60,463 nucleotides of DNA, taken from IMG/VR virus record IMGVR_UViG_3300030450_002177, positions 1-60,463 of that record; one strand, written 5' to 3'. Below the pieces are notes generated by a model. The model worked only from the letters and a program-made list of their open reading frames with translations, was not told the origin of the DNA and did not search any database. A program made the position numbers and the translations under genes. This DNA is from a virus. Position 1 is the stretch's first letter. Each line of letters opens with the position of its first letter. Shown piece after piece: positions 7,092 to 60,320 of this stretch.

Positions 7092-7339
7092 TGAGTAAGG
7101 ACAAACAAAAAGAGTTTTTTGCAAAGTGTGAAGATGAGTGGAATGGTATGCCAGAATTTGTACAAGAAGATTTAAGACCTTGGCATCAGGTTAATGTGCG
7201 ATTCAGAAACCAAGAAGACTTTGACAAATTTAAAGTATTAATGGAACAGGAAATTACGCCAAAACAAAAAACTTTATGGTTTCCACACGCACCCTTTCGT
7301 AGAGCTGCTAAATACAAATACATTGATGATGAATCCTAG
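7091..7339 (+). CDS. Hypothetical protein beside glycosyltransferase, 82 aa
   Basis: ATG at 7091 overlaps the preceding TGA. Contains WNGMPEFVQEDLRPWHQV and a C-terminal TLWFPHAP motif, a pattern I associate with small phage proteins next to DNA-modification genes (recollection, not verified). Overlaps the glycosyltransferase gene by 11 bp, indicating tight co-expression. Confidence 0.65.
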   Translation: MSKDKQKEFFAKCEDEWNGMPEFVQEDLRPWHQVNVRFRNQEDFDKFKVLMEQEITPKQKTLWFPHAPFRRAAKYKYIDDES

Positions 7340-8192
7340 CTATCCGATCTATATAGTTTCTAAAGGAAGATGGGAAACAAGACACACAAGCAAGGCTTTA
7401 GAGCTTATGTCTGTTCCTTACCGTATTGTCGTTGAAGAACAGGAATACGATAACTATGCTTCTGTTATAGATTCAAAAAAGGTGTTGGTGTTGCCCAAGC
7501 ACTACCTAAACGAATATGAAACTTGCGATGATCTTGGTGACAGTAAAAGCAAAGGACCGGGGGCTGCTAGAAACTTTGTATGGGATCATTCAGTAGAATT
7601 AGGTGCAAAACGTCATTGGGTTATGGATGACAACATCGCTTCTTTTAATAGATTGAATCGCAATTTGATGTGCAAAGTTACCAGTGGCACTATATTGAAA
7701 GCAGCTGAAGATTTCGTGGACCGATACGAAAATGTCTATCTGGCTGGACTCAACTACGATTTTTTTGCGAAAGCCAAAGAACCTCTGCCACCTTTTGTAA
7801 AAAACACACGCATCTACTCGGTGCTGCTAATAAAAAACGATATACCTTATCGTTGGCGAGGTCGTTATAACGAAGATACCGACTTATCGTTGAGAGTTCT
7901 GAAAGATGGGCACTGTACAGTGCAATTCAACGCTTTTTTGCAGGAAAAGAACACCACGCAAAAAGTTAAAGGTGGGAACACAGAAGAGTTCTATGCTAAA
8001 GAAGGCACATTGCCTAAGTCAGAAATGATTGCGAAGCTACACCCAGATGTGGCGAAGGTTGCGTGGCGTTTCAATAGATGGCATCACTACGTTAACTACA
8101 GACCTTTTAAAAATAACCGATTTATAAAAAAAGAAGGATTGGATATTCCCGTGGGGCATAATAATTATGGTATGAGGTTGGTGGAAGTATGA
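7329..8192 (+). CDS. TET-associated-type glycosyltransferase, 287 aa
   Basis: GT-A-like fold pattern: N-terminal PIYIVSKGRWETRHTSKAL, GPGAARNFVWDHS, then HWVMDDNIASFNRLN holding the DxD-like metal/nucleotide-sugar motif, and RWRGRYNEDTDLSLR. This matches TAGT/GREB1-like glycosyltransferases, known in phages to decorate hydroxylated pyrimidines. A base hydroxylase of the TET/JBP type is not recognised here, so DNA hypermodification is an inference; protein or surface glycosylation remains possible. ATG 7329 chosen over upstream in-frame alternatives. Confidence 0.75.
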   Translation: MNPSYPIYIVSKGRWETRHTSKALELMSVPYRIVVEEQEYDNYASVIDSKKVLVLPKHYLNEYETCDDLGDSKSKGPGAARNFVWDHSVELGAKRHWVMDDNIASFNRLNRNLMCKVTSGTILKAAEDFVDRYENVYLAGLNYDFFAKAKEPLPPFVKNTRIYSVLLIKNDIPYRWRGRYNEDTDLSLRVLKDGHCTVQFNAFLQEKNTTQKVKGGNTEEFYAKEGTLPKSEMIAKLHPDVAKVAWRFNRWHHYVNYRPFKNNRFIKKEGLDIPVGHNNYGMRLVEV

Positions 8193-11868: not shown

Positions 11869-12400
11869 CCACGGCATAACGGGAGCTAAAGTCACGCCAG
11901 CTGACGTAAAGCTGTTCATGGACTTCATCAAGGGCAAGCGTCCCAAAAAAGGAAAAATCGTGAAATCCACGAGGGCTGTGGAGAATAATAGTTACAGGGA
12001 TGCAGACGTATACTTCATCGATTTTAAGCAAAAGAAACTTTATGAGGTGCTCAAGCGTATTGCCAATACCGTTAATGCTCATTTTAACTACAACATAGAT
12101 GGTATAGAGAAAGCTCAGGTAATTAGGTATAAAGCTCCTTCTAATGGTTACGATTACCACATAGACCTAGGCAATGACGAAGAAGCATTGAAACGCAAGA
12201 TAAGCGTGTCGTTGATATTGAACGAAGATTATGAAGGTGGAGAGCTCTGCTTTAGGTCTGGAGTAGAGGAGAAGTGTCTAAAAGGGACTTCTGGAGACGT
12301 TGTAGCCTTCAGTTCCTTCGTTCCACACAAAGTTAACCCAGTTACTAAAGGACAGCGCTACGTTGTTGTTGTCTGGTTTACTGGTCCGTGCTTTAAGTGA
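11858..12400 (+). CDS. 2OG-Fe(II) oxygenase, P4H-like, 180 aa
   Basis: C-terminal P4H domain: YDYHIDLG (HxD), then NEDYEGGELCFRSG, a distal His in FVPHKVNPV and Arg in GQRYVVVVWF for 2OG binding. All expected ligands are present. GTG start overlapping the end of the cargo-like gene. Shorter than the 1577 enzyme and only distantly similar. Might hydroxylate the adjacent cargo or a virion protein; substrate unknown. Confidence 0.8.
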   Translation: MNPNHGITGAKVTPADVKLFMDFIKGKRPKKGKIVKSTRAVENNSYRDADVYFIDFKQKKLYEVLKRIANTVNAHFNYNIDGIEKAQVIRYKAPSNGYDYHIDLGNDEEALKRKISVSLILNEDYEGGELCFRSGVEEKCLKGTSGDVVAFSSFVPHKVNPVTKGQRYVVVVWFTGPCFK

Positions 12401-19438: not shown

Positions 19439-19480
19439 TTTTCCTCCTTCTTTATTGTTGTTTATCATATCCACATATAC

Positions 19481-19509
19481 ATTATACATATATTTATAAA
19501 TATGTACAA
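19481..19509 (-). promoter_or_regulatory. Early promoter, repeated-family copy A
   Basis: Minus strand TTGTAC (19509-19504), 17 nt, TATAAT (19486-19481). The promoter and the about 45 bp after it (ATGTGGATATGATAAAC and the ribosome site) match copy B at 43546 almost base for base. Drives the leftward genes 19438-14734. Confidence 0.8.
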
Positions 19510-19557
19510 CTTTTTACACATGTTTTTTTTATTTATTTTAGTCCTATTTTTGGACCC

Positions 19558-20139: not shown

Positions 20140-21231
20140 ATGAAAGACTACCAAAGACAAAGACTGTATAACTGGGAGAACGCAGAACCTTGGATGGTAA
20201 AGAAAAGCGATCTTACAGAATCAGAGGTGCTTTACATTGTTAAAGAGTTAGACAAAATATTTAGAAAAAATTGGGAAATTAAAGAAACCAAAGTCCAGTT
20301 TTCCAACGGCAGAGGAATGAGCTGGGCAAACAAGTCTAAGATGAAATTAAAAAGAGATTGGGCATTGACTTGGGGTGTGGTCTTGCACGAATATGCACAC
20401 GTTATAACTGACGACAAACACGGACCTGAGTTTGTTGCAACCTTTTGTGGCTTAATCAATCGTTACCACCCAGACAAACCTTGCTTAAAAGAAATGGCAA
20501 AAACTCTAGGTGAATATGGATTGGACTTTAAATCGCTTAAAACTTTAGAAGATAGAGTGGCAATATCCAAACAACCTGACATCGACATATCTAAAGCGCC
20601 GATAGTAAAATCAAAATCAAGAGCTTTAACTCCAGAACAAAAAAGAAATAATAAGTTTAGAGCCAAGACTAAAGAATTATTAAAAGCTTGGGAAAGAAAA
20701 AGATGGGTATTAGGTGTTGATAGTGACCTTCACAAATTTGAATTTGATATTGAAAGAGTATATGACCCTCATTGGGGATTAGAGCTTTATGTCAGAAAAA
20801 CGGGTTGGATATATGATGACAAAATTACAGAGGGATTTGAATGGGAGTTGGAAGATACTTACGATAATTGGAAAGACGCTTATTACTGGTTGGCAAGCAA
20901 TGTTGTTGAAGTGTGGGAACTCTTCTTTACCAGCCCACCCAACGTGATGGGTGAAGACAAACCAACAGAAAGAAAAAGAGTAAAAAAATCTGGTCAAAGC
21001 CAAGAAGCTAAAGACAAAAAAGTTTATTACAACAGAGCCAGAAGGAGATTGGTCAAACATGGCTTTGAAATAATCTACGAAGGTGCGCACAAGAACTACA
21101 GGTCGGTTACGTTTAAAAACAACGAAACTCTGTTTGTGCAAGAAGCACAAGACAGTGCACCACTTAACATAGATTGGAAGAAAGTTTGCACAACCCTAGA
21201 AAATCTAGGCTATAAGGATGCAATTAGATGA
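20140..21231 (+). CDS. HExxH metallopeptidase-like protein, 363 aa
   Basis: VLHEYAHVITDDKHGPEFVATF at about residues 84-105 is a zinc-peptidase signature: HExxH plus a third His in HGPEF, as in SprT-like and related phage peptidases. The C-terminal two thirds are basic and Trp-rich, with two further segments (KLLKAWERKR and KRVKKSGQSQ regions) that may bind DNA. ATG behind GGAAGG and copy-D promoter. Substrate unknown; cleavage of a host or DNA-bound protein is plausible. Confidence 0.65.
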   Translation: MKDYQRQRLYNWENAEPWMVKKSDLTESEVLYIVKELDKIFRKNWEIKETKVQFSNGRGMSWANKSKMKLKRDWALTWGVVLHEYAHVITDDKHGPEFVATFCGLINRYHPDKPCLKEMAKTLGEYGLDFKSLKTLEDRVAISKQPDIDISKAPIVKSKSRALTPEQKRNNKFRAKTKELLKAWERKRWVLGVDSDLHKFEFDIERVYDPHWGLELYVRKTGWIYDDKITEGFEWELEDTYDNWKDAYYWLASNVVEVWELFFTSPPNVMGEDKPTERKRVKKSGQSQEAKDKKVYYNRARRRLVKHGFEIIYEGAHKNYRSVTFKNNETLFVQEAQDSAPLNIDWKKVCTTLENLGYKDAIR

Positions 21232-21248
21232 TGTTTCACGTGAAACAT
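21231..21248. promoter_or_regulatory. parS: parS-type ParB-binding palindrome, site 1
   Basis: ATGTTTCACGTGAAACAT, a perfect 18-bp palindrome whose central 16 bp equal the bacterial chromosomal parS consensus TGTTTCACGTGAAACA. It begins at the stop codon of the peptidase gene, about 40 bp before the recombinase start. An identical copy lies at 45638. No ParB is recognised in the window. Confidence 0.85.
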
Positions 21249-21288: not shown

Positions 21289-22092
21289 ATGATTACACCC
21301 AATAAACAAATAAATAACATCTACGGTTATGTTCGAGTGTCTACGACAGAACAAGCCATTAATGGTATTTCAATCGACACGCAAAAAGATTTGATTAACG
21401 AATTTTGCATGACCAAGTTTAATCGCCCAGTTGACGAGTTTTTCGTTGATGCTGGCGTGTCTGGAACCATACCTATTAATGAGCGTGAAGAATCAAGAAG
21501 ATTGACAGACACCATAGACGAACACGACATTGTTATATCGACACGCTTAGACAGATTATCAAGATCGTCTGGCGATCTTTTAAAGACCATACCGATCTTT
21601 GAAGAGACTGGTGTTATCTACTATCTGTGTGAGCAATTTGGCGATATGCCAATTTCTTATCCAAAGAAAAAGAATAAAGCCAGCTTGCAGAGCAAGTTTG
21701 ACATGAACGAGATGGTCAACAAGATTATGGTTATGGTCTTATCGGCAGTGGCTGAAATAGAACACGGCTCTACTGTTGATAAACTAAAAGAAGGTAAATT
21801 GGCTTGGGCACCTAAAGGCTATTCGATAGGTGGCACAGCTCCTTTTGGTTACGATAAGGAAGAAGAAAAGATCAAAACAGGCAAAAGAGTTAAGCGCAGA
21901 ATGAAGTTGGTAGAGAATGAAGAAGAGCAAAAGGTCTTACAGTTTATCTATAAATTGAGGAAAAAGGGCTTAGGCGCAAGAAGAATATCCAAACAGATAG
22001 TGGCTCATTTTCCAGAATACGACATCTTTCCTTACTGGAAAGTACGCAACATACTAGCCAGAAAAGCACAAGGCTTGCATAACGCTAGTTAA
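21289..22092 (+). CDS. Serine site-specific recombinase, 267 aa
   Basis: Resolvase/invertase N-terminal domain: YGYVRVSTTEQ with nucleophile S18, and STRLDRLSRS with Arg86, Arg89 and Arg92. It is followed by a short recombinase domain (GGTAPFGYDKEEEK near 201-214) and a C-terminal KGLGARRIS helix. It is much shorter than phiC31-type integrases (usually 450-700 aa), so integrase, dimer resolvase or invertase are all possible. It follows AAGGAG. parS site 1 lies in its leader. Confidence 0.8.
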   Translation: MITPNKQINNIYGYVRVSTTEQAINGISIDTQKDLINEFCMTKFNRPVDEFFVDAGVSGTIPINEREESRRLTDTIDEHDIVISTRLDRLSRSSGDLLKTIPIFEETGVIYYLCEQFGDMPISYPKKKNKASLQSKFDMNEMVNKIMVMVLSAVAEIEHGSTVDKLKEGKLAWAPKGYSIGGTAPFGYDKEEEKIKTGKRVKRRMKLVENEEEQKVLQFIYKLRKKGLGARRISKQIVAHFPEYDIFPYWKVRNILARKAQGLHNAS

Positions 22093-22119: not shown

Positions 22120-24030
22120 ATGGCTAAACTACCAACAGGTTATCCTATAACAACTGGTGCCTTTTTGCTTGGGGATCAAGGTTCTAGGGTTGAACCATAT
22201 TATGATTTTGTCAGAGACATAACTGGTGACAGGCGCTCAACAGATGATGAAGATATTTTTGCTCCAGATAGAGATTTATTGGATAAAGTTGTTGAATCAT
22301 ACGAAGAAAACATACCCCTGCCAGACAAAATATTAGCTGGATTCACAATACCGGGCATTGGTATGGATTTAGCAGCAGCTGGAAAGTACGGCAGAGAAGG
22401 CGTTAGAGATATAAAATCTGGATTACAAAGCTTAGGTAGTGGTTTTAGTATGCACAAAGCCCCTAGTCAATTAAAGTCTGGTGTGAAAAATTTAGGCATA
22501 GCCACACTAGCTGGCGTAGGAGCAATACCAGTTGTTGGCGATATAGTGAAGCGAGCAGGCACACCTCTAATAAAAGGCTTGCAAGAATCTTCCGAAATAG
22601 TACCAATATTATCAATAATCAAGAAGTCTGATAATGTAAACCCGAAAAGAGTAAAACAAGCAAAAGATTTATTAGAAGCCTCATCAAATAATTTTGTATA
22701 CAAAGGCGTAGAGCAACAAAGAAGACAGCCCATAGAGGTTTTAGATAATGGTGATGGCACTTTTACTCAACTGGGTGGCTCTTCTACATTACAAGCCTTA
22801 GAAGAATCTGGCGCAACCCATATTCCCATAAAGCGCTTTCCAACCCGAGAGGCTTATCTCGAAAATGAGCCTATCAGAAAAGCTGCAAAAGAAAATAAAA
22901 GAGCAGAAGATGCGAAAACACTACAACCTAAAGTAAACGATCCAACATTTGAAGGACCTGTAAGAGAATTTGGCTCTAAAATGGAAAAAGAGTTTGATAA
23001 GACTTTTAATTTACACCAAGAGGGTCTTAAAACTGTAGATGATTTGTTTGAAACGGCACAAAGAGCCAACTCTCAATTCCAGAAAGAAATAAAAGAAATT
23101 GCTGATGGCTTTAATTTAAAAAGCACCTCAGCCCCCGGCGAACCTATTACTGATCCTACCGTTTTCAAATTTCTTGACAAAATTGATGGTCTTGCTGTTG
23201 ACATAAGAACAGGTCATTATCCCGGCACCGTTAAGCTGCCCAGTAGCATCCTTAGAAAGTCTAAAGCTAAATACAACGGCGATCCTTCACAAATAACTGA
23301 TAGCATGAGAACCAGAATTATAGCTGAAACCCCTGAAGAAGCTGATGCACTAGCCAAAGCAATATCATCTAAATGGGCAGCTAAAGATTCAGGCAATCAA
23401 ATAAACATGTTTGGTTACATAGATCGCAAACTTAATATTCAATACATTGATGATGCTGGAAATAAGATAATAGCAGAAATAAGCATAGTGCCTAGAGCTA
23501 TGGATGATGCAGCTCAAAAAGCACATCCACTATATGAAGCTTACCGTGGACAAATAGCCCTTTATGGCACTTCTGATGTAGATTTATTCCCTTACGCAGC
23601 ACAACAAAGAGCAAAAGTATTGCTTGAGAGACAAAATCAAATTTTTGGCGAAGCTAAACAACATATTCATCCAAGCTGGCTAGGAGAAGACCTTGTTCAA
23701 AAATTTGCTTACGGAGGTGCTGTTTATGCCAATCGAGGCAGCTCAGGAAGTGTGTCACCTATGACACCAAACTTCTTTTCAAACTCTGATTTATCAATGT
23801 TAGCTCCATCAATGGTGATGTCTGCGTATTGTTCACCTGAAGCAACTCGCCAAGAGTCTTCATCTAAAGGCAAAAAGAAAGCTGCTGATACATTGGCTTC
23901 TTCGGAACCAGCTATGACTGCTGGCAAACTTTCCCAAGAAAAATATAAGATTTCTAATTCCATGTCAGACAGTATAACAAAAAGATTCGTAGATTCACCA
24001 ACTGAAGGGGGTCGCAAGGAAATTTTATGA
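22120..24030 (+). CDS. Large cargo-like protein with RelA/SpoT-like domain and FAYGGAV motif, 636 aa
   Basis: The N-terminal part contains GFTIPGIGMDLAAAG (about 67-81), like the hydrophobic segment of the 12413 product. At about 313-475 is a region whose motif order fits a RelA/SpoT nucleotidyltransferase fold: ILRKSKAKY, ITDSMRTRII (D and R), MFGYIDRKLNI (for GYxSIH), AEISIVPRAM (for EIQxRTxxM) and AHPLYEAYRG. FAYGGAV follows at about 529-535, then a Ser-rich tail. Possibly injected and acting on nucleotides or RNA. Fold assignment is by eye. Confidence 0.5.
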   Translation: MAKLPTGYPITTGAFLLGDQGSRVEPYYDFVRDITGDRRSTDDEDIFAPDRDLLDKVVESYEENIPLPDKILAGFTIPGIGMDLAAAGKYGREGVRDIKSGLQSLGSGFSMHKAPSQLKSGVKNLGIATLAGVGAIPVVGDIVKRAGTPLIKGLQESSEIVPILSIIKKSDNVNPKRVKQAKDLLEASSNNFVYKGVEQQRRQPIEVLDNGDGTFTQLGGSSTLQALEESGATHIPIKRFPTREAYLENEPIRKAAKENKRAEDAKTLQPKVNDPTFEGPVREFGSKMEKEFDKTFNLHQEGLKTVDDLFETAQRANSQFQKEIKEIADGFNLKSTSAPGEPITDPTVFKFLDKIDGLAVDIRTGHYPGTVKLPSSILRKSKAKYNGDPSQITDSMRTRIIAETPEEADALAKAISSKWAAKDSGNQINMFGYIDRKLNIQYIDDAGNKIIAEISIVPRAMDDAAQKAHPLYEAYRGQIALYGTSDVDLFPYAAQQRAKVLLERQNQIFGEAKQHIHPSWLGEDLVQKFAYGGAVYANRGSSGSVSPMTPNFFSNSDLSMLAPSMVMSAYCSPEATRQESSSKGKKKAADTLASSEPAMTAGKLSQEKYKISNSMSDSITKRFVDSPTEGGRKEIL

Positions 24031-24913: not shown

Positions 24914-27745
24914 ATGGCAAGTACATACGTTAATGATTTAAGACTCAACGAAATGGCGACAGGTGATGCGTCAGGAACTTGGGGTACGACCACAAACACA
25001 AACTTAGAATTAATAGCAGAAGCGTTTAGTTATGGCACAGAAGCTATAACAACCAACGCTGATACGCATACTACTACTATTGCAGACGGAGCAACTGATC
25101 CCGGTAGATCAATGTTTCTTAAATACACAGGTGCATTGGATTCTGCCTGTACTGTAACTATTGGACCAAACACAGTATCTAAACTATGGTTTATAGAAAA
25201 CGCTACTACAGGTTCGCAAAACTTAGTTATAAGTCAAGGCACAGGTGCAAATATAACAATACCTGCTGGCGATACTAAAATTATTTATTCTGATGGTGCT
25301 GGTTCTGGTGGTGCTATGGTAGATGCACTAGCTAGTATTTCTGCTGTAGATTTAAAAGTACAAGACGATTTGACAGTTACAGATGATGCTTCAATAGGTG
25401 GAGACTTAACACTTACAGGTAACGGTGATTTTAACGGAGACTTAGACGTAGATGGAACTACAGAAACAGACGCATTAACTATTAATGGCTCGGCAGTAAA
25501 CTACAAAGCGTTTGGTACTTCTTCAATTATGCTTGGCGATAATGCTACAGGAACTATTGATGCTGCTAATTATAATGTTGGATTAGGTGTTGATGTTTTT
25601 GCAGCTTTAACTTCTGGTGATGGGAACATAGCTATTGGTTTTGCAGCATTAGATGCTAACACCACAGCAAGTTATAACGTAGGTATAGGACATAATGCTC
25701 TTGGAGCAACCACAACTGGTCAGCAAAATATTGCAGTTGGAGCAAATTCACTTGATGCAAATACGACTGGTGGAGACAATGTCGCAGTAGGAACAGGTGC
25801 TTTAGGAGCAAATACCACAGCCTCAAATAACGCAGCAGTTGGACATTTGTCTTTAACAGCAAACACTACAGGTCATTCAAATACAGCAGTAGGTTCTTTA
25901 TCACTTGATGCTAATACTACTGGAATTAGAAATACTGCCGTTGGTTTTGAAGCTTTAAGTGCAAATACTGATGGCACACAAAACACAGGAGTTGGTAAAG
26001 GTGCTTTACTTGTAAATACCACAGGTATTGAAAATACAGGGGTTGGTTCAAGTGCTCTTGACGCTAACACCACTGGTTCATATAACACAGCAATGGGACA
26101 GGGTGCTTTAGATGCTAATACAACAGCAGATAGCAACACTGCTTTCGGACACGATGCTTTAAAAGCAAATACCACAGGAACTCTTAACGTGGCAGTTGGT
26201 AAAGATGCTTTGTTAGCAAATACAACAGCTAATTCAAACACGGCAGTTGGCAATATAGCACTTGCTGCAAACACTACAGGAGCAGCGAATACGGCAGTGG
26301 GAAGAAATGCTCTTGGTGCAAATACGACTGCTTCAAATAACGTGGCAGTTGGGCATGGTGCTTTGGAATCTAATACGACAGGTGCTTCAAACACAGGAAT
26401 TGGTTATCAAGCTTTAGATGCGAATACTACAGGTGGTGCCAATGTTGGTCTTGGTTATGGAGCTCTTGGAGCAAATACAACAGCTTCAAATAACGTTGCT
26501 GTGGGCGTAAATGCTATGGAGGCAAACACCACAGGCACACAAAACGTAGCCGTAGGTCAAGCAGCTTTAGACGAATCTAGCACAGCAAGTTATAACACAG
26601 CAGTTGGTTATAGAGCCATGTCTGCAACTACAACTGGACAAGAAAACGTTGCATTTGGAACAGACGCAATGTTAGCAAATACTACTGGTGCTAGAAACAC
26701 AGTTTTAGGTGGCTATGCTTTAAGCGTTAATACAACAGGAGGAAACAACGTAGCGATTGGTTATTCTGCTATGTTAGCAAACACTACAGCATCAGAAAAT
26801 GTTGGTATCGGTGTTTATTGTTTAGACGCTAACACTACTGGGGGAAATAATTGTGGAGTTGGATATAATGTTTTAGGTGCTAACACCACAGGTTCTCAGA
26901 ACACGGCTGTAGGACATACTGCATTAGATTCTAATACTACAGCATCCAATAATACAGCAATGGGATATGGTGCTTTAGGAGTAAACACTACAGGTTCTGA
27001 AAATGTAGCAGTTGGAAGAAATTGTCTTGATGCAAATACCACAGGGCAAGACAATACTGCTATTGGTAATTCAGCGTTAGGAGGCAACACCACAGCTTCA
27101 AACAACACAGCCGTTGGTTCTGCTGCTTTGTTATTATGTACTACAGGAGCAGGTAATACTGCTATAGGAATTAATGCAGGTGGGTCAGTAACTACAGGTG
27201 GTAATCATTTCTTTATTGGGCATGGGGCAGGTATGACTTCTGGACCGGGAGGTACGCCGGGTGGTGCTATAACAACAGGTAATAACGAGGGTGTGATTGG
27301 AAATGGTGATACAAGTAAAATTAATACGCAAGTATCTATAACAGTAGCATCTGATGAAAGAGATAAAACAGACTTTCAAGCTTTAACAGCAGGTTTAGAT
27401 TTTGTAAACGCATTGAAACCTTATACTTACTATTGGGATAAACGAGCCAAGTATGTTGACTGGGAAACTAATCCTGATACAGACCTAAATTCTGTAACCA
27501 ATGATGGAACGCACAAAGAAGACTGGATGGATTTAGGTTTTAAAGCACAAGATGTAGTTGCTTTAGAAGATTCAATAAATCATAAAATATCTAATAAAAC
27601 TAATTTAGTTACCAGTCTATCAGGTGATGGAAAACAATACGCTTTACAATACGAAAAGTTTGTACCAATTCTAGTTAAAGCTTTGCAAGAAGCTGACGAT
27701 AAAATAGATGCGTTGACTACTAGAGTCACGACATTAGAAGGATAA
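24914..27745 (+). CDS. Tail fibre with YadA-like 17-aa repeats and S74 chaperone domain, 943 aa
   Basis: N-terminal virion-binding region (NDLRLNEMATGDASGTWGTT), a beta region, then 31 exact-length 17-residue repeats (about 238-764; core NTAVGxxALxANTTGxx) like trimeric autotransporter head coils. At the C-terminus is a Peptidase_S74 intramolecular chaperone: SDERDKTD with the Ser-Asp catalytic pair, GLDFVNALKPYTYYW and a final coiled coil. Expected to trimerise, cleave itself and bind host receptor. Confidence 0.85.
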   Translation: MASTYVNDLRLNEMATGDASGTWGTTTNTNLELIAEAFSYGTEAITTNADTHTTTIADGATDPGRSMFLKYTGALDSACTVTIGPNTVSKLWFIENATTGSQNLVISQGTGANITIPAGDTKIIYSDGAGSGGAMVDALASISAVDLKVQDDLTVTDDASIGGDLTLTGNGDFNGDLDVDGTTETDALTINGSAVNYKAFGTSSIMLGDNATGTIDAANYNVGLGVDVFAALTSGDGNIAIGFAALDANTTASYNVGIGHNALGATTTGQQNIAVGANSLDANTTGGDNVAVGTGALGANTTASNNAAVGHLSLTANTTGHSNTAVGSLSLDANTTGIRNTAVGFEALSANTDGTQNTGVGKGALLVNTTGIENTGVGSSALDANTTGSYNTAMGQGALDANTTADSNTAFGHDALKANTTGTLNVAVGKDALLANTTANSNTAVGNIALAANTTGAANTAVGRNALGANTTASNNVAVGHGALESNTTGASNTGIGYQALDANTTGGANVGLGYGALGANTTASNNVAVGVNAMEANTTGTQNVAVGQAALDESSTASYNTAVGYRAMSATTTGQENVAFGTDAMLANTTGARNTVLGGYALSVNTTGGNNVAIGYSAMLANTTASENVGIGVYCLDANTTGGNNCGVGYNVLGANTTGSQNTAVGHTALDSNTTASNNTAMGYGALGVNTTGSENVAVGRNCLDANTTGQDNTAIGNSALGGNTTASNNTAVGSAALLLCTTGAGNTAIGINAGGSVTTGGNHFFIGHGAGMTSGPGGTPGGAITTGNNEGVIGNGDTSKINTQVSITVASDERDKTDFQALTAGLDFVNALKPYTYYWDKRAKYVDWETNPDTDLNSVTNDGTHKEDWMDLGFKAQDVVALEDSINHKISNKTNLVTSLSGDGKQYALQYEKFVPILVKALQEADDKIDALTTRVTTLEG
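25625..27205 (+). repeat. 31 tandem 51-bp (17-aa) repeats
   Basis: 31 units of exactly 17 codons, residues 238-764, with one degenerate unit just before (about 221-237). Protein consensus is strong while codons vary, suggesting old repeats held by selection rather than recent slippage. Confidence 0.85.
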
Positions 27746-27755
27746 GGAGTAAAAA

Positions 27756-28073
27756 ATGGCAGTAAGCAAAAAATTAGTAAAAACCATACCTTATGTCAAA
27801 TCCAGTAAAGTGGAAGAATGGCATTTGGATATGCAATACGAAAACGACAGCGAAGGCGATGCGACTTATTACAAAACTGTATTCAGGCACACAGCCGTAG
27901 CAGCCGATGGTGATTTTACCAAAGCAGCAAAAGGTTCGTTTAGTAACGCTGACTTAGTAGCGTTGTGTCCTGTATCGCATTGGGATGTAGTATTCGCTAG
28001 TCAGGTGGATTCAGTTATTACGAATCCAACTACTGAACCAGTACCTGACGAGTCATTTGCAGTACCTAGTTAA
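27756..28073 (+). CDS. Fibre-associated hypothetical protein, 105 aa
   Basis: ATG after AAGGAG, 10 bp behind the S74 fibre gene. Sequence with KVEEWHLDMQYENDSEGDATYYKTV and LCPVSHWDVVFASQ is of a type that follows fibres in marine phages; an assembly factor or small virion protein is possible. Confidence 0.55.
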   Translation: MAVSKKLVKTIPYVKSSKVEEWHLDMQYENDSEGDATYYKTVFRHTAVAADGDFTKAAKGSFSNADLVALCPVSHWDVVFASQVDSVITNPTTEPVPDESFAVPS

Positions 28074-28780
28074 TGGCTGAAGTAACAGTACATAATATGC
28101 CTAGTGTCTTTGTTATGGAGACACAGATGCCAGAGAGTATGGTGAATGACTTAAATGATTATCTTGACGAATACGTTGAAGATAAAAACAAGAAGTCATT
28201 AGCTGATACTTTAGTTGGGCAAATAGCACAAGGCGAACAATTATTAATGGATAACGCTGACCCAAGATTAAAAGAATACACAGACTTTGTTTGTGGATTA
28301 GGAGCAGACTATATTAATTTCTTTTCTCAAAATACTGGAGCAACGTTAAAAGCACCTAAAGCAGTAGCTGTAGATGAAACTTGGTCAGTACACAGTTACG
28401 AAGGAGACTATAATCCTATACACGATCACGGTACTAAAACCATAATGGGTATATCCACTACTGGCTGGACTAAAGTACCACAACAAATACTAGATCAACC
28501 TGTAGCTGGATCACCTAACTATTCTTTATACAATACGTCAGGTGATTGCGATGGTTATATAGCATTTCAATATGGGTTGAATCAATTAATGGACACAGAT
28601 AGATTGAGACCACCTCAATCTTTTGTTATGCAACCAGAGGTAGGGAAGTTGTTGGTTTTCCCTTCATGGTTGCAACACATGGTATATCCTTTTAAGGGAG
28701 AAGGTGAAAGAAGAACGGTTGCCTCTAACCTTAATTGTTGGGATGTGCCTCAAGAACCAACACAAGAAGAAGGAGAATAA
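28073..28780 (+). CDS. 2OG-Fe(II) oxygenase, 2OG-FeII_Oxy_5 type (copy 2), 235 aa
   Basis: Paralogue of the 3074-3796 product: shared ETWSVHSYEGDYNPIHDH, PEVGKLLVFPSWLQH and GEGERRTVASNLNCWDVP, so His/Asp ligands, distal His and the 2OG Arg are all kept. Starts in a TAATG overlap with the fibre-associated gene, pointing to action on fibre or tail proteins, in contrast to copy 1 among replication genes. Substrate unproven. Confidence 0.85.
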   Translation: MAEVTVHNMPSVFVMETQMPESMVNDLNDYLDEYVEDKNKKSLADTLVGQIAQGEQLLMDNADPRLKEYTDFVCGLGADYINFFSQNTGATLKAPKAVAVDETWSVHSYEGDYNPIHDHGTKTIMGISTTGWTKVPQQILDQPVAGSPNYSLYNTSGDCDGYIAFQYGLNQLMDTDRLRPPQSFVMQPEVGKLLVFPSWLQHMVYPFKGEGERRTVASNLNCWDVPQEPTQEEGE

Positions 28781-34627: not shown

Positions 34628-35071
34628 ATGGAAATATCGCAGGAAGGACTGGCACTAATTAAATATTTTGAAGGTTGTGAGCTTGAGGCATACAAATGTC
34701 CAGCTGGTGTGTGGACTATAGGTTACGGACACACAAAAGATGTCAAAGAAGGTGACAGAATTAATAAAGATGAAGCAAATCATTTGTTAGAAGAAGAAAT
34801 GATAGAGTATGAAAGTTATGTAAATGACATGGTTGAAGTTGACCTTAATCAAAGTCAATTCGACTCTTTGTGTGCATGGATTTATAATTTAGGACCAACA
34901 AATTTTGCTAATTCAACGCTCCGAAAAGTCTTAAATGAAGGAAAATATGATGAAGTTCCACAACAAATCAAAAGATGGAATAAAGCTGGTGGTGAAGTAT
35001 TGACTGGTTTAATAAGACGTAGAGAAGCAGAAGCATTACTTTTTCAAGGTAAAGAATGGCATGAGGTATAA
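34628..35071 (+). CDS. Endolysin, GH24 lysozyme, 147 aa
   Basis: MEISQEGLALIKYFEG starts a T4-type lysozyme; E15, C24 and T30 fit the E-8-(D/C)-5-T catalytic spacing, with TIGYGHT following. AWIYNLGPTNFANSTL and a C-terminal GLIRRREAEALLF complete the family. No export signal, so release needs a holin. The start two bases after the nuclease stop couples them. Confidence 0.85.
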   Translation: MEISQEGLALIKYFEGCELEAYKCPAGVWTIGYGHTKDVKEGDRINKDEANHLLEEEMIEYESYVNDMVEVDLNQSQFDSLCAWIYNLGPTNFANSTLRKVLNEGKYDEVPQQIKRWNKAGGEVLTGLIRRREAEALLFQGKEWHEV

Positions 35072-35075
35072 ATCA

Positions 35076-35162
35076 ATGAAATGCCTTATACTTAGCTTAT
35101 GTGCTACTCCATTAGCACTAGGGCTAGGTAGTACCAATGTATGTCACTATCAAGCTACCTAG
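35076..35162 (+). CDS. Possible small secreted peptide, 28 aa
   Basis: ATG 35076 to TAG 35162. Hydrophobic signal-like start (MKCLILSLCATPLALGLG) and ending NVCHYQAT, like short lysis-region peptides of marine phages. Very short; only tentatively a gene. Confidence 0.35.
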   Translation: MKCLILSLCATPLALGLGSTNVCHYQAT

Positions 35163-35177
35163 CCTGCTTTTAAAGGT

Positions 35178-36665
35178 ATGAAAAACGTATCTATAAAAGA
35201 TTTTGATATTTTGTCTGAGCAAGACAAAACAGAGGCTATAGCCCTATTAAACCGTTATGAGCAAATAGATAAGCAGTCTAATTGTCATGTAGATTTCTTG
35301 TCTTTTGTTAAACACATGTGGGGCGACACTTTTATTGAAGGTCGTCATCATAAGATTATCGCTGATAAATTCAATCGTATAGCACAAGGCAAACTAAAAA
35401 GACTAATTGTTTGCTTACCCCCTAGACACTCTAAATCAGAATTTGCTTCAACCTTCTTTCCAGCTTGGATGATGGGCTTAAACGGTTCTTTAAAGATAAT
35501 ACAATGTACACACACAGCCGAACTAGCTGTCAGGTTCGGTAGAAAAGTAAGAAACCTTATTGATAGTGAAGATTTTAAGTTTATTTTTCCTAATTTAAAA
35601 TTACAAGCAGACAATAAAAGTGCTGGTAGGTGGACAACAAACGAAGAAGGTGAGTCTTTCTACGCTGGTGTAGGTGGAGCTATTACGGGTCGTGGTGCTG
35701 ATTTATTGATTATTGACGATCCTCATTCTGAGCAGGACGCTCTTTCTCCTAAAGCATTAGAATCAGCTTATGAGTGGTATACATCAGGTCCTAGGCAGAG
35801 GTTACAGCCGGGAGGCACCATAGTCATAGTAATGACTCGTTGGAGCACGAAAGATTTGGTTGGTAAAGTATTGAAGAAGCAGGGTGAAGAGAACGCAGAC
35901 CAATGGGAAGTGATTGAGTTTCCAGCAATTATGCCAGAAACAGACAAACCATTGTGGGGCGAGTTTTGGAAAAAAGAAGAATTACTTAGCGTTAAAGCAT
36001 CACTTCCAGTAGCTAAATGGAACTCACAATGGATGCAAGACCCTACAGCTGAAGAAGGTTCAATCGTAAAAAGAGAATGGTGGAGAAAGTGGGCTGGAGA
36101 AAATGTGCCAGAATATGATTATGTTATACAAAGTTATGATACTGCGTTTTCTAAGAAAGATACTGCTGACTATTCTGCAATAACAACTTGGGCTATTTTT
36201 ATAGATGAAGAGAACGACATGCCCAATATAATCCTATTAGACGCAAAAAGGGTTAGGGTGGACTTTCCTGAGCTAAAACGATTAGCTTTTGATGAGTACA
36301 AGTATTGGGAGCCAGACTGTGTATTAATAGAAGCTAAAGCATCAGGAACGCCTCTTACACAGGAATTAAGGCGTATGGGAATACCAGTAACTGCTTATTC
36401 CCCAAGCAGAGGACAAGACAAAATTGCCAGAATGAATAGTGTTGCGCCAATCTTTGAATCTGGAATGGTTTGGATGCCAGAAGAAACTTTTGCAGAAGAA
36501 GTGGTTGAAGAGATGGCTAGTTTCCCTTATGGTGATAACGATGACTATTGCGATAGTGCCACGATGGCTTTAATGCGTTTTAGACAGGGTGGTTTTTTGT
36601 CATTAAAAGAAGACTATCAAGATGAGGTAAAATTACTAAAAAGAGACAGGACGGTTTATTATTAA
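35178..36665 (+). CDS. terL: Terminase large subunit, 495 aa
   Basis: ATPase: Walker A-like CLPPRHSKSE (about 79-88) and Walker B LLIIDDPHSEQDA (176-188). Nuclease: SYDTAFSKKDTADYSAITTW with the first catalytic Asp, LIEAKASGTPL, and DDYCDSATMAL near the end. Packaging motor for the portal encoded downstream. The small subunit is about 25.5 kb away. Confidence 0.95.
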   Translation: MKNVSIKDFDILSEQDKTEAIALLNRYEQIDKQSNCHVDFLSFVKHMWGDTFIEGRHHKIIADKFNRIAQGKLKRLIVCLPPRHSKSEFASTFFPAWMMGLNGSLKIIQCTHTAELAVRFGRKVRNLIDSEDFKFIFPNLKLQADNKSAGRWTTNEEGESFYAGVGGAITGRGADLLIIDDPHSEQDALSPKALESAYEWYTSGPRQRLQPGGTIVIVMTRWSTKDLVGKVLKKQGEENADQWEVIEFPAIMPETDKPLWGEFWKKEELLSVKASLPVAKWNSQWMQDPTAEEGSIVKREWWRKWAGENVPEYDYVIQSYDTAFSKKDTADYSAITTWAIFIDEENDMPNIILLDAKRVRVDFPELKRLAFDEYKYWEPDCVLIEAKASGTPLTQELRRMGIPVTAYSPSRGQDKIARMNSVAPIFESGMVWMPEETFAEEVVEEMASFPYGDNDDYCDSATMALMRFRQGGFLSLKEDYQDEVKLLKRDRTVYY

Positions 36666-42522: not shown

Positions 42523-43440
42523 ATGGCAATTTCAAGAGCACAATTAGCTGCCGAATTAGAACCGGGATTAAACAGTTTATTTGGAATGGAGTACGATCAG
42601 TACGACAAAGAATATTCTGAAATCTTCTCAATCGAAGACTCATCAAAAGCCTTTGAAGAAGAAGTATTAATCGTTGGGTTTGGTTCTGCACCAACTAAGT
42701 CTGAAGGTCAAGGTGTTGTTTTTGACAACGCTACTGAAAGTTACACTGCAAGATATACGCATGACACGATTGCGTTGGCTTTTGCACTAACTGAAGAAGC
42801 AGTTGAAGATAACCTTTATGATTCTTTAGGAAAGAGATATACAAAAGCACTAGCACGTTCTATGGCTAACACCAAAGAAGTGAAAGGAGCTAATGTACTT
42901 AATAACGCTTTCTCTACCAGTTTCACTGGTGGCGATGGAAAACCTTTAATCGCAACAGACCACCCTCTTTCTGGTGGTGGTACAGCTGCGAATAGAGCTA
43001 CTTCTATGGCTGACCTTAATGAAACTTCATTAGAGGATGCGCTTATTGACATATCTACATTTACAGACGATAGAGGTCTGACAATATCCGTTAACGCATC
43101 GAAACTTGTGGTTCCACCACAACTTACTTTTGTTGCTGACAGAATATTGAACAGCACTCAGCGTTCAGGAACGGCAGATAACGACATTAACGCTATCAAA
43201 AACACAGGGGTGTTACCCGGTGGCTATACTGTCAATCATTATCTGACTGACCCAGACGCTTTCTTCTTACTGACATCTGTTACAGATCAAGGTGAGGGAC
43301 TGAAAATGTTTCAAAGAACAGGTATGGAAACAAACATGGAACCTGATTTCTCTACTGGTAACATACGTTACAAGGCAAGAGAAAGATACAGCTTCGGTTT
43401 TTCAAACTGGAGAGGTGTTTACGGTTCTCAGGGAGCTTAA
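42523..43440 (+). CDS. Major capsid protein, 305 aa
   Basis: HK97-fold head protein of Mu gpT-like type: KAFEEEVLIVGFGSAPTKSE, YTHDTIALAFALTEEAVEDN, KPLIATDHPLSGGGTAAN, SKLVVPPQLTFVADRIL and a C-terminal RYSFGFSNWRGVYGSQGA. Ends the first head block, before a terminator. Confidence 0.85.
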   Translation: MAISRAQLAAELEPGLNSLFGMEYDQYDKEYSEIFSIEDSSKAFEEEVLIVGFGSAPTKSEGQGVVFDNATESYTARYTHDTIALAFALTEEAVEDNLYDSLGKRYTKALARSMANTKEVKGANVLNNAFSTSFTGGDGKPLIATDHPLSGGGTAANRATSMADLNETSLEDALIDISTFTDDRGLTISVNASKLVVPPQLTFVADRILNSTQRSGTADNDINAIKNTGVLPGGYTVNHYLTDPDAFFLLTSVTDQGEGLKMFQRTGMETNMEPDFSTGNIRYKARERYSFGFSNWRGVYGSQGA

Positions 43441-43486
43441 TGAACGAATAGAAATACCGTTTATAACTCAAGTATTTCAAAGAAAG

Positions 43487-43511
43487 GGCAACTTCGGTTG
43501 CCTTTTTTTTT
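43487..43511 (+). terminator. Rho-independent terminator after the major capsid gene
   Basis: GGCAAC-TTCG-GTTGCC (43487-43502) with a stable UUCG loop, followed by nine T. Confidence 0.85.
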
Positions 43512-43545
43512 GGTCTAAATTTATTGAAATAATATGTATAAAAAG

Positions 43546-43612
43546 TTGTACATTTTTATAAATATATGTATAATGGACATGTGGAGATGATAAATAACAA
43601 TAAAAAGGAGAA
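43546..43612 (+). promoter_or_regulatory. Early promoter, repeated-family copy B
   Basis: TTGTAC (43546-43551), 17 nt, TATAAT (43569-43574), then ATGTGGAGATGATAAATAAC and AAAAAGGAG. Near-identical over about 85 bp to copy A (19509-19438, opposite strand). Confidence 0.85.
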
Positions 43613-43615
43613 AAA

Positions 43616-43795
43616 ATGAAAAGAAAATATAGAGAGTACAAAGGCATAAAAATTGAGTGTCAAATGACACCAAAGGGTTTTGACAGTGACTACTATAATG
43701 TTATGTATGTTTACAGATTGAATGGTGGTTTAAACGTCAGCCATAAACTTAAAGATGCCAAAGCTAGAATTGACAGATTTGTGGAGAAGGCGTAA
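43616..43795 (+). CDS. Hypothetical early-type protein, 59 aa
   Basis: ATG after AAAAGGAG, first gene behind promoter copy B. Contains YKGIKIECQMTPKGFDSD and LKDAKARIDRFVE, an alpha/beta pattern like small phage early proteins. Unknown. Confidence 0.55.
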   Translation: MKRKYREYKGIKIECQMTPKGFDSDYYNVMYVYRLNGGLNVSHKLKDAKARIDRFVEKA

Positions 43796-43917
43796 TGAGT
43801 AAATTTGCAATTACTTTCCGTCCTTGCGAGGTATGTGAGAATCCGTATGTTGAATACGTTAATGGTGAAACTTGTGGTTGTGAAGTTTGCCATGAAGGTT
43901 ACATGAATCAAGAATAG
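43795..43917 (+). CDS. Zinc-binding-like small protein, 40 aa
   Basis: TAATG overlap. CEVCENPYVEYVNGETCGCEVC gives two cysteine pairs about 15 residues apart, a likely zinc knuckle. Confidence 0.5.
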   Translation: MSKFAITFRPCEVCENPYVEYVNGETCGCEVCHEGYMNQE

Positions 43918-43926
43918 GAGAAAAAA

Positions 43927-44262
43927 GTGAAAAATTTACTTAAAGAAATCAAGGAAGCTAAGAAAGAAGCTAAAAACAAAACTCTTAAATACGCTAAATG
44001 TGCTTTTGGTCAAGGCTGGGAAATTATACAAAGAGATAATTCGGGCAGAGAAGAAGAGCTAGCGTCTTTTGAAAGTGGCGAGCCTATTACTCTTAAAGCA
44101 ATTAAGGAAGTAACAGATTCCAATAGAACCTTAACTGCTAAAGAAATTTGGATTGAAGGGAGATATGTTGGAGCTAAAAACCTTTATGATTATATAAATA
44201 ATGAAGATTATATAGACAACGTAAATTATTGGGAAGTTGATCTTCTAAAGGAGGTAGAGTAA
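43927..44262 (+). CDS. Hypothetical protein, 111 aa
   Basis: GTG after AGGAGAAAAA. Basic helical N-terminus (LKEIKEAKKEAKNK) and an acidic C-terminus. Unknown; part of the inserted early-type cassette. Confidence 0.55.
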   Translation: MKNLLKEIKEAKKEAKNKTLKYAKCAFGQGWEIIQRDNSGREEELASFESGEPITLKAIKEVTDSNRTLTAKEIWIEGRYVGAKNLYDYINNEDYIDNVNYWEVDLLKEVE

Positions 44263-45089
44263 TGATAACTGGCTTGGGCAAAAGATATTACTACATAGGT
44301 TCTGGTTATGAGAACAAAATGTATACCCTTAGAGATTACGTTTCCTATACTAATGGCGAAACTTCTAGTGAAAGCGATAGGCACATGTTAAACCTTTCTA
44401 CTGATTATGAAGAGGCTTACAAAAAAGCCAAAATCTATGCCGAAAGGGATGATGTAACATTGCGTGCTTCTAAGGTTGATAATTTTGCACCTCTTGATCC
44501 AATCATTAGAAAAAGAAAAAGAAGCGCTGAGGAAATAGAAAAGGCTAAAATTGACTTGCAAATAGCAGTTGATGATTTTTTGCAAGCCAACCCGATCTTA
44601 GCACAGAACTTTGAAACTTATGGTGATGCAGATATTGAGGTGAAAAGAGAAATAGGTTTTGCTTTCTATGACATTAAAGACAAGCTTTATAAGTATGGCA
44701 ATCTGTCTGAAGCACAAGTAGATTTTTGTCTTAAAATGGTAGACAGCTATATTACCAGAAAAGAAAATGCAAAAGTATGGGCAGAAGAAAAAGCTGATGC
44801 AGAGCCAGTACCTGTGACTGAAGAAAGAATACAATTTACTGGAGAGGTTATAAAAACTGCATGGAAAGATTACACTTTGCCTAACGGTATGCCAACAAGC
44901 TCACAAAAATGCACTGTTAAAGATGACAGAGGTTTTGTGGTTTGGGGTGGTAATGTAGGTGAAAAGGGTGACAGGGTTACTTTCATGGCTAGAGTAACCG
45001 TTTCAGACAATGACCCTAAATTTGGCTTTTACAAAAGACCTACCAAAATACAACAAATTGAAAAAGCTGGAGTAGAAAACAATGGCTAA
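44262..45089 (+). CDS. OB-fold-like hypothetical protein, 275 aa
   Basis: TAATG overlap with AAAGGAGG upstream. Helical middle (NLSEAQVDFCLKMVDSY) and a C-terminal beta segment RIQFTGEVIKTAWKD, SSQKCTVKDDRGFVVWGG, GDRVTFMARVTVS that looks like an OB-type or plasmid-type small-molecule/DNA-binding domain. Function not recognised. Confidence 0.55.
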   Translation: MITGLGKRYYYIGSGYENKMYTLRDYVSYTNGETSSESDRHMLNLSTDYEEAYKKAKIYAERDDVTLRASKVDNFAPLDPIIRKRKRSAEEIEKAKIDLQIAVDDFLQANPILAQNFETYGDADIEVKREIGFAFYDIKDKLYKYGNLSEAQVDFCLKMVDSYITRKENAKVWAEEKADAEPVPVTEERIQFTGEVIKTAWKDYTLPNGMPTSSQKCTVKDDRGFVVWGGNVGEKGDRVTFMARVTVSDNDPKFGFYKRPTKIQQIEKAGVENNG

Positions 45090-45633
45090 CAAACCAAAAA
45101 AAATAGAGAAGGAGAAAGAAATGCAAAATTTTATTTTTGAATCAAGAAGTGATACTTTTTTTGAATCAGATTACAACGATTATGGAATACGTTGTGAAAT
45201 CACTGTTCTAGGTGAAGAAAAATATAGGGTTGAACTTATAGGTCTTGACTGCGAAGTGATTAAGTGTTTTACCTGTAAAACAACTGACGAATGTAAAACT
45301 GAAGCTTATGAAGAAGCTAAATTCCTGAAGGAAATGAATGAAGTGACTTGTGGTAATCTTACAGTAGATGATTACGAATTACATCATTCATGGTGTTATG
45401 CCCATACTTCAGACATAGAGCGACTTAAAGAGATTTGTTCTAAGTATGATGACAATAAACATAAATGCGAATTAGAAAGTGCCTATGAATATGAAGATGA
45501 AAACAAAATATTAGATAAAAAAATTCGTGAGGATAAGTGGCAAGCTGATTTTGAAAAAATGCTGTCTTCTAAAAACATAAAAGAAATGAAGGTAAATGTA
45601 CTCAAAATGATTCAAGACCACAAAAAAAATTAA
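45082..45633 (+). CDS. Hypothetical acidic protein, 183 aa
   Basis: Overlaps the previous gene by 8 bp. Several Cys (IKCFTCKTTDECKTEA) and acidic helices. Last larger gene before parS site 2. Start may instead be the ATG at 45121 behind GGAGAAAG. Confidence 0.5.
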   Translation: MANKPKKIEKEKEMQNFIFESRSDTFFESDYNDYGIRCEITVLGEEKYRVELIGLDCEVIKCFTCKTTDECKTEAYEEAKFLKEMNEVTCGNLTVDDYELHHSWCYAHTSDIERLKEICSKYDDNKHKCELESAYEYEDENKILDKKIREDKWQADFEKMLSSKNIKEMKVNVLKMIQDHKKN

Positions 45634-45637
45634 TTAT

Positions 45638-45655
45638 ATGTTTCACGTGAAACAT
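45638..45655. promoter_or_regulatory. parS: parS-type ParB-binding palindrome, site 2
   Basis: ATGTTTCACGTGAAACAT, identical to the 18-bp site at 21231. It begins 5 bp after a stop codon and lies about 32 bp before a small gene, the same setting as site 1; the 20 bp after both sites contain AAAATAT. Confidence 0.85.
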
Positions 45656-45686
45656 ATCTAAAATATACAAATAAAACGAGGTATTT

Positions 45687-45830
45687 ATGAAATTAAAAAA
45701 ATTTAGTCACAGAGGTGGAATAGTGGGCAGAAGAACTAGAGCCTTAGAAAGATTAGAAAAAATTGTAGAACCAACTGAACTGCAACAATATCAAATTGTA
45801 ATTTTAAAGAAAAAACTTCAAGTAAAATAA
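45687..45830 (+). CDS. Basic small protein behind parS, 47 aa
   Basis: ATG 45687 after CGAGGT. Basic (MKLKKFSHRGGIVGRRTRAL), helical, ending ILKKKLQVK. The only gene between parS site 2 and the terminator. Possible DNA-binding or ParB-interacting protein, by position only. Confidence 0.45.
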   Translation: MKLKKFSHRGGIVGRRTRALERLEKIVEPTELQQYQIVILKKKLQVK

Positions 45831-45855
45831 CAAATCTAAATTTGCTAATTTGAAG

Positions 45856-45890
45856 CCCTAGTAGTATGATTTTACTACTAGGGTTTTTTT
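45856..45890 (+). terminator. Strong rho-independent terminator
   Basis: CCCTAGTAGTA (45856-45866), 6-nt loop, TACTACTAGGG (45873-45883), then seven T. A perfect 11-bp stem. Closes the inserted cassette. Confidence 0.9.
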
Positions 45891-45959
45891 ATTTTTGAAC
45901 CTATTGACTGACCTAGCAGACAAGCCAAGACAATAGGGGAATTTCCAAAGGAGGAAATT

Positions 45960-46517
45960 ATGGCAAACTCAACATTTAATGGACCAGTTAGGTCTGAAAA
46001 CGGCTTTGAGCAGATTACTGTTACAGCCAAAACGGGAGCAGTTACCACAAATCTCGATATTGATAGCAGTGGTAATTTAGTTACCACAGGGTATGTGTCT
46101 TCTTACGATAATGTTGTATCTATTACTGATGCTACTTATACAGTCGCTACTACTCAATCTGGTGCAGTTTTTGACTTAAATCGTGCTGCTGGAATTGTAG
46201 TAACACTACCTAGTGCAGCAGCTGGTCTTAACTATACATTTATAGTTGGAACAACTTTCACAGGCGCAGGGCAAATTAATACTGGAGCTACAGATGATCT
46301 ATATTCTGGTTTTGCTCATATATTTGACCCAGCAACTGCAACAGATATGAATACATTTATTCCTGACGCTAGTAATGATGATACTATTGATTTAGGATCA
46401 GCAGCACAAGGTTGGCTAGTAGGTGGAATTATCCGTTTGAAAGCAACATCAGCAGCAGTATGGCATTGTGAAGCATATCTTCATGGTGACGGTACACTAG
46501 CTACTCCATTTGAGTAA
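45960..46517 (+). CDS. Virion structural protein, 185 aa
   Basis: Beta-rich, Gly/Thr/Ala-rich: MANSTFNGPVRSENGFEQIT, then LNRAAGIVVTLPSAAAGLNYTF and a C-terminal VWHCEAYLHGDG. A common marine phage head or fibre-like protein. Strong ribosome site AAAGGAGGAAA. Confidence 0.65.
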   Translation: MANSTFNGPVRSENGFEQITVTAKTGAVTTNLDIDSSGNLVTTGYVSSYDNVVSITDATYTVATTQSGAVFDLNRAAGIVVTLPSAAAGLNYTFIVGTTFTGAGQINTGATDDLYSGFAHIFDPATATDMNTFIPDASNDDTIDLGSAAQGWLVGGIIRLKATSAAVWHCEAYLHGDGTLATPFE

Positions 46518-47692: not shown

Positions 47693-48009
47693 TGTCTACC
47701 TACGCAAGCAACAAGAACGCATACGGTATCTGTGATGTAACAGGTTTTCGCTATAAGCTAAAAGACATGAAAAGGACTTGGAATGGTCTTATCGTTGGTC
47801 CAGACCAGTTTGATCCTAAGCATCCTCAATTAGACCCCAGAATACCTCCAGTTGATGGCGAAGCCATAAAAGATGCTAGACCAGACACAAGTGACGATAA
47901 TAACTTTTTTACAGTTTACACAAACGTAGGTTTAGGTAAATTGGGCAAACAACTAACCACCTACGAGATTGCCTGTGAGGTTGGTTCTGTTAATATAACA
48001 ACAACATGA
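47692..48009 (+). CDS. Connector-module protein, 105 aa
   Basis: GICDVTGFRYKLKDMKRTWNG and FDPKHPQLDPRIPPVDGEA match a short conserved protein of marine podovirus tail modules, whose relatives carry a zinc ribbon; here only one Cys remains in that area. TAATG overlap with the gp4-like gene. Confidence 0.6.
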   Translation: MSTYASNKNAYGICDVTGFRYKLKDMKRTWNGLIVGPDQFDPKHPQLDPRIPPVDGEAIKDARPDTSDDNNFFTVYTNVGLGKLGKQLTTYEIACEVGSVNITTT

Positions 48010-60031: not shown

Positions 60032-60103
60032 GTCGGTAGCATTGTATAGAAAGATACAGATATTTACAACATTTTATAGTATAAAAATTAATTAAATATA
60101 TTT

Positions 60104-60182
60104 GTATAAATATGTATACATTTGTATAAAAAAGTGTATAATAAATATGTGGTGATAATTAAAAACAAAAAAGAAGGGGGTA
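60104..60182 (+). promoter_or_regulatory. Early promoter, repeated-family copy C
   Basis: GTATAC (about 60114-60119), 17 nt, TATAAT (60137-60142), then AATATGTGGTGATAATTAAAAAC and AAGAAGGGGG. Same leader box as copies A and B but more diverged, with a weak -35. Drives the early genes running through the window junction to 1552. Confidence 0.7.
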
Positions 60183-60185
60183 AAA

Positions 60186-60320
60186 ATGGTTAGAGTTATG
60201 AATTATTTAGAAAGACACAGTATTAGTGTTGCCATGATAAACATGGTAGCTAGTATTTATATAGCTGAAGCAGTAATCAACTTTGTTGCTTACATATTAA
60301 AAATAGTGGGGGTAGCGTAA
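60186..60320 (+). CDS. Small membrane protein, 44 aa
   Basis: ATG behind AAGGGGG. One hydrophobic helix (MVASIYIAEAVINFVAYILKIV, about 20-41). First gene after promoter copy C. Unknown role. Confidence 0.5.
   Translation: MVRVMNYLERHSISVAMINMVASIYIAEAVINFVAYILKIVGVA

Follow-up and report, generated by a model that had tools for sequence, protein, structure and literature searches.

We analysed a virus record of 60,463 bases, the whole of which is called the window here, and examined the segment between its major capsid protein gene and a decoration- or cement-like gene. The capsid protein was 58–66% identical to its counterparts in DSL-LC04, HTVC023P, HTVC027P, 023Pt_psg01 and CRP-902 (tblastn, annotated capsid genes), and the named hosts among these matches were those of the Pelagibacter phages HTVC023P and HTVC027P and of the Roseobacter phage CRP-902. 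The homologous capsid gene and the common order of GroES, scaffold-position gene and capsid place the window in the HTVC023P-like podovirus group. When genome contigs were searched for a host, the matches were limited to one contig of a Pelagibacter MAG and a short one from a gammaproteobacterium; the former carries a terminase 81% identical to that of the window. A 10-kb megablast query found no match among phage records, and neither tRNAs nor Rfam families were detected in the window. The sample of relatives (L numbers below) consisted of 80 retrieved through the capsid and others retrieved through the terminase and the cargo genes. Elsewhere in the window, four genes (7323–8192; 3074–3796, minus strand; 11858–12400; 28073–28780) encode a TET-associated glycosyltransferase (TAGT) and three 2OG-Fe(II) oxygenases, a possible DNA or glycan modification set, and a 943-aa protein (24914–27745) with about twenty 51-nt (17-residue) repeats is fibre- or adhesin-like.

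Table 1. Features of the segment behind the capsid gene, with the related promoters and the second parS site found elsewhere in the window.
Feature	Position	Strand	Remarks
Early promoter copy A	19451–19538	-	Repeat partner of copy B
parS site 1	21232–21247		Exact TGTTTCACGTGAAACA; directly behind a stop codon, upstream of a resolvase-type recombinase
Major capsid protein gene	42523–43440	+	Left slot border; tblastn to DSL-LC04, HTVC023P, HTVC027P, CRP-902
Terminator 1	43487–43511	+	End of capsid operon; stem-loop (fold of 43484–43516, -11.4 kcal/mol), then nine T; same place in relatives
Early-type sigma70 promoter copy B	43546–43574	+	TTGTAC (43546–43551), 17-nt spacer, TATAAT (43569–43574); ATGTG leader
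A59, cargo gene	43616–43795	+	ORF; another gene in its place in L360–L362
B40, cargo gene	43795–43917	+	ORF; Cys-rich
C111, cargo gene	43927–44262	+	ORF
D275, cargo gene	44262–45089	+	Predicted C-terminal OB-fold protein; phrog_3628 / phrog_4265
D275 tail–E183–parS 2–F47 piece	45049–45836	+	788–789 bp; missing in L360–L362 and L364
E183, cargo gene	45082–45633	+	ORF; acidic
parS site 2	45639–45654		Exact 16-mer TGTTTCACGTGAAACA; 6 nt past the E183 stop
F47, cargo gene	45687–45830	+	Small basic protein; homologs in L221/L222 (74%) and L392 (98%)
Terminator 2	45852–45887	+	Right slot border; 15-pair stem, -22.3 kcal/mol
Decoration/cement-like gene	45960–46517	+	Next after the slot; position as the DSL-LC04 'cement protein'
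Further early promoter, same family	60102–60190	+	-10 at 60137

The preliminary description of this DNA had proposed an inserted moron-like cassette, made of two strong terminators, a copy of an early promoter, six small genes and a parS site. We recovered all of these signals in the sequence (Table 1). Copies A and B of the promoter share 76 of 88 nt (86%), and a weaker alignable copy lies near 20110 on the plus strand. The -10/leader pattern matched three times in the window, compared with a mean of 0.65 and a maximum of 3 in shuffles. An automatic scan for promoters and terminators gave no excess over shuffles (26 vs 29.5 and 6 vs 5.6, respectively), so it is the repeat copies, and the conserved location in relatives, that support promoter copy B.

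The cargo does consist of six plus-strand ORFs (59, 40, 111, 275, 183 and 47 aa), as had been described, although D275 is not a small gene. No match to Pfam, PHROG or PADLOC was found for A59 and B40, no accepted family match for any of the five cargo proteins other than D275, and no defence-family match for any of the six. Matches of C111 to Imm6 and of E183 to ArdA fell below the Pfam cut-offs and were not accepted, and a single-sequence fold of E183 (pLDDT 51) was too poor to be used. The model of D275 (pLDDT 82, pTM 0.49) had RPA and SSB OB domains as its best solved folds in Foldseek (best E 2e-4, with a low TM to the whole query), and its C-terminus is thus predicted to be an OB fold resembling those domains. 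Relatives of D275 are present in RB43-like and other phages; E183 has only three relatives in IMG/VR and none in phage records. Since none of the six genes has a paralog in the window, we dropped the idea that the cassette is a duplicate of the 14.7–19.5 kb early block, of which only the promoter and the gene-start signals are repeated.

We compared the slot across 46 loci (window included) spanning the capsid gene to the g135 gene. In 19 of the 46 the slot is empty: the decoration-like gene is the first after the capsid gene and the only one in a gap of 649–902 nt. Most non-empty loci hold 1–5 extra genes in a gap of up to 3137 nt (~3.1 kb), and their loads differ between relatives and occur on either strand. 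Loads of the D275 family are in forward orientation in L360, L363, L365, L236 and L254 and in reverse in L011, L014 and L046; SNF2 helicase loads are reverse in L267 and forward in L034, and NT5C nucleotidase loads are found in L285 and L022. The matches of the two SNF2 loads to ZorD/DpdE reflect a shared helicase domain, and we rejected that assignment. Extra genes that are present in some relatives and missing in others with intact flanks, the synteny pattern expected from the preliminary description, make this a moron in the broad sense, and the cassette is not a fixed feature of the group.

Of the 22 long loci, 12 have the early-type promoter at 120–131 nt behind the capsid gene, and none of the 24 short ones does (Fisher 1.7e-5), on a background of 0.06 motifs per kb; without near-duplicates the counts were 10/18 and 0/22 (5e-5). 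In L248, L025/L026 and L034 the slot promoters are deviating forms only. Because slot and promoter recur with unrelated cargo, the promoter and the terminators belong to a recurrent slot and not to one inserted cassette.

The composition of the present load became apparent from its closest relatives, in which the stretches shared with the window are 86–99% identical (L360–L362 and L364). The capsid gene, terminator 1, the promoter B region up to 43597 and D275 (98%) are common to the window and L360–L362, in which one different gene replaces A59, B40 and C111. The left exchange junction with L360 lies at about 43597, inside the promoter leader. Terminator 2 follows D275 directly in these three and in L364, whose sequence starts inside D275, and the piece 45049–45836 is missing. 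The more distant L363, L365 and L366 have the promoter and D275 only, and L221 and L222 lack D275 and carry another ORF with F47. Terminator 2 is kept in L360–L366 and in L392. In L392, E183, the palindrome, F47 and terminator 2 are 95.4% identical to the window over 960 nt (window 45120–46076). We infer that E183, parS and F47 move as one sub-module, because this module is 95% identical and the capsid region on the left flank of L392 only 77%. The record of L390 has an assembly gap between a D275–terminator arrangement and one of D275 tail, ORF and F47, which suggests that both versions of the load exist in one population.

Two findings accord with the early gene style that had been claimed. 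In L393 the E183 homolog adjoins homologs of the genes of the window's 15-kb early block, and the protein of the replacement gene of L360–L362 is 88% identical to that of an early-block gene of the window (775–984). The proposal that the repeated promoter served as homology for insertion did not find support, though the left junction with L360 in the promoter leader would fit it.

We weighed two accounts of the segment. According to the first, it is a classical moron, one cassette inserted whole into the late region with its own promoter active in a lysogen. The promoter and terminators, which would make it an autonomous transcription unit in the strict sense of the term, agree with this, as do its lack in many relatives with intact flanks and the resolvase-type recombinase encoded at 21289–22092. 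A strict moron would also have been inserted as one unit, whereas here the load is composite and assembled in pieces, and the slot and promoter recur with unrelated loads. The proposed expression in a lysogen fares no better: no repressor was recognised in the window, the only recombinase found is a resolvase-type protein of 267 aa whose similarity to large serine recombinases is confined to their N-terminal part, and published work describes the cultured relative HTVC027P as obligately lytic (PMC12753301). We consider the classical account quite improbable. What holds of it, judging from the arrangement of the signals, is the layout of an independent transcription unit inside the late region.

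We strongly favour the second account, in which a conserved cargo slot currently holds this cassette as its load, with parS riding on one of the cassette's sub-modules. The sequences show that behind the capsid gene the group retains a terminator followed by an early-type promoter and, further on, another strong terminator. The contents in between are swapped from one phage to the next, with junctions at ribosome-binding sites as well as in the promoter leader and at the right terminator. Host sigma70 RNA polymerase would read the load early in lytic infection, and its transcription would be separate from that of the capsid operon on the left and of the tail operon on the right. From the promoter similarity and the type of genes, early lytic expression appears to fit better than a lysogen moron. 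In HTVC027P, RNA-seq showed early, middle and late genes to be interspersed in a discontinuous, mosaic-like manner (PMC12753301).

The closest known parallel to a bracketed moron segment that includes a cis-acting site comes from the Bacillus phage SPP1, whose late region contains a segment with oriR and ORFs 8–10 (PMC6316719). In both phages a segment bracketed by transcription signals breaks the conserved late-gene order and holds moron genes together with a cis-acting DNA site. The site of SPP1 is a replication origin and here it is a host-type parS; moreover, the segment described here lies between capsid and decoration genes, and its load varies across the group behind a conserved promoter. 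Reviewed morons (PMC6316719) and the pid moron of P22 (PMC3573128) likewise place one or more extra genes in the late region, but here we find a recurrent slot with an exchangeable load and an early-type promoter common to the phage's early blocks. HTVC023P-type pelagiphages (HTVC023P, HTVC027P; PMC9599517, PMC12753301) have a similar capsid-to-tail gene order, and HTVC027P carries the small genes gp60 and gp61 (35010–35427) at the same junction and shows the interspersed temporal classes.

The 16-bp parS consensus occurs exactly at two places in the window, where 2.3e-5 exact sites are expected (P for two or more ~3e-10). Several genes surround site 1. A 363-aa metallopeptidase-like protein with an HExxH motif (HEYAH; 20140–21231) ends exactly at the site, and directly downstream lies the gene for the 267-aa serine recombinase, whose similarity to large serine recombinases such as CcrB covers only their first ~200 residues and which has a 79% identical homolog in L267. 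The 636-aa protein encoded at 22120–24030 matched RelA_SpoT below threshold (21.3 bits against a cut-off of 27) and has homologs in L267 and L268.

In IMG/VR, exact parS was present in at least 120 stretches, compared with 1 for an equal-composition control palindrome and 2 for a non-palindromic control 16-mer, an enrichment of at least 60-fold. The parS counts are minimum values, and the share of relatives in the sample may be biased. Relatives by structural genes made up 29 of the 80 listed parS contigs (36%) and 5 of 69 random contigs drawn by a random 14-mer (7%; p 2.5e-5), and closer relatives numbered 23 and 2, respectively. The sites prefer intergenic positions: 22 of 43 fell inside ORFs, where 92% would be expected to do so (p 2e-12). 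Outside the 16-mer the flanks of the lineage members compared are unrelated. Two distant relatives, L103 and L130, carry five exact sites within ~1 kb upstream of the terminase. HTVC027P carries CGTTTCACGTGAAACA at 16412, and in Caulobacter phage KcrB no sequence came within two mismatches of the consensus.

That the site is accidental host DNA, brought in with a captured gene, agrees with its riding on a mobile module. The unrelated flanks, the intergenic bias, the occurrence of up to five sites per contig and the way the site recurs, in several groups, at the capsid junction make this a very remote prospect. This recurrence was seen as parS-like palindromes directly behind the capsid stop codon of several relatives, in 8 windows at up to two mismatches (2 of the 8 being second copies of the same record) compared with a mean of 0.0025 for controls. 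Most have a CATGTG/CACATG centre and some read TGTTCCACATGGAACA. Centres of CACATG/CATGTG in place of CACGTG lie behind the capsid stop in L024, L049, L053, L059, L064, L072 and L083 and also occur at L392:4522, L221:16194 and L390:1501. Close relatives mostly have such a palindrome or none, and these forms outnumber exact parS among them; the place in L392 that is orthologous to site 2 of the window also has a CATG-centred form. CATG-centred variants may be weaker sites, decaying sites or the sign of another protein that reads the palindrome.

The palindrome could instead serve a phage protein as its operator, or protect mRNA 3' ends as an RNA hairpin, with the likeness to parS being secondary. 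It is often located immediately after a stop codon and its fold is a weak hairpin (-7 kcal/mol), and behind the capsid stop near relatives show the CATG centre or the paired T-to-C and A-to-G changes of TGTTCCACATGGAACA, all of which suit such a role. An RNA hairpin needs no exact sequence, yet parS ranked first of 840 palindromes of the same composition at up to one mismatch (6 occurrences vs a mean of 0.04) in 1.63 Mb of related loci chosen independently of parS. The enrichment over control 16-mers, the unrelated flanks and the location of some sites inside genes also speak against this reading, which we regard as unlikely.

We then considered which protein would read a genuine parS. ParB_N was not found in the window or in 40 further records, and HTH_ParB and AAA_31 were not found in 18 records; control genomes matched in both searches. 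The window had no match to PF02195, PF17762 or PF13614, and no parA and parB genes of a phage-plasmid with its own ParABS system were recognised in it. Among 47 further parS contigs, mostly outside this phage group, ParB_N was found in only 4. Phages in general may often carry parS and lack ParB, and since many of the parS contigs are fragments, a ParB could lie outside the sequenced part. Extrachromosomal mycobacteriophage prophages (RedRock and others) are likewise phage genomes with partition sites; unlike the window, where we found the chromosomal 16-bp consensus and no ParA or ParB, they have genes for ParA/ParB and rely on repeated 8-bp motifs (PMC7157519). The text of PMC9599517 on HTVC023P-type phages does not mention parS or ParB, and no report of parS on phages lacking ParB was found in the literature searched, which took in few subscription journals and no preprints.

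Given that our searches recognised no partition genes in this phage, we propose host ParB as the reader of the site. In a Pelagibacter MAG, the parS core GTTTCACGTGAAAC, the same 14-bp core, lies inside rsmG and adjoins parA and parB, which indicates that hosts of such a type have a reader for the site. It is probable, as far as the sequences can tell, that host ParB is recruited to the phage DNA by parS. A strict need for ParB binding is weakened by the close relatives that have CACATG/CATGTG forms or no site. As a passenger of the E183–parS–F47 sub-module, parS would load the host ParB clamp on the phage DNA, and with less certainty may act as a borrowed centromere, a DNA-compaction site or a ParB decoy; partition or compaction of phage genomes seems somewhat more likely than a decoy. 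The Alcaligenes phage vB_Af_QDWS535 (OK172329) has, inside an annotated 165-nt ORF, an exact TGTTCCACGTGGAACA (47934–47949), the Pseudomonas-type parS. As an isolated phage of a culturable host, it is a handy test system for ParB borrowing. We give even odds to the broader picture of a widespread superfamily of phages with exact host-type parS, 1–5 per genome or contig, and without partition genes, which would draw host ParB (with ParA or SMC) during infection and whose sites would spread partly in exchangeable cargo modules.

What had appeared as a one-off moron thus becomes a defined evolutionary site at which an abundant group of marine phages exchanges early genes within its late region. 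The 16-bp site that it carries points to phages borrowing the chromosome-partition system of their hosts. The questions of whether ParB loads on infecting phage DNA, and of the benefit to the phage against the harm to host segregation, are now directly testable.
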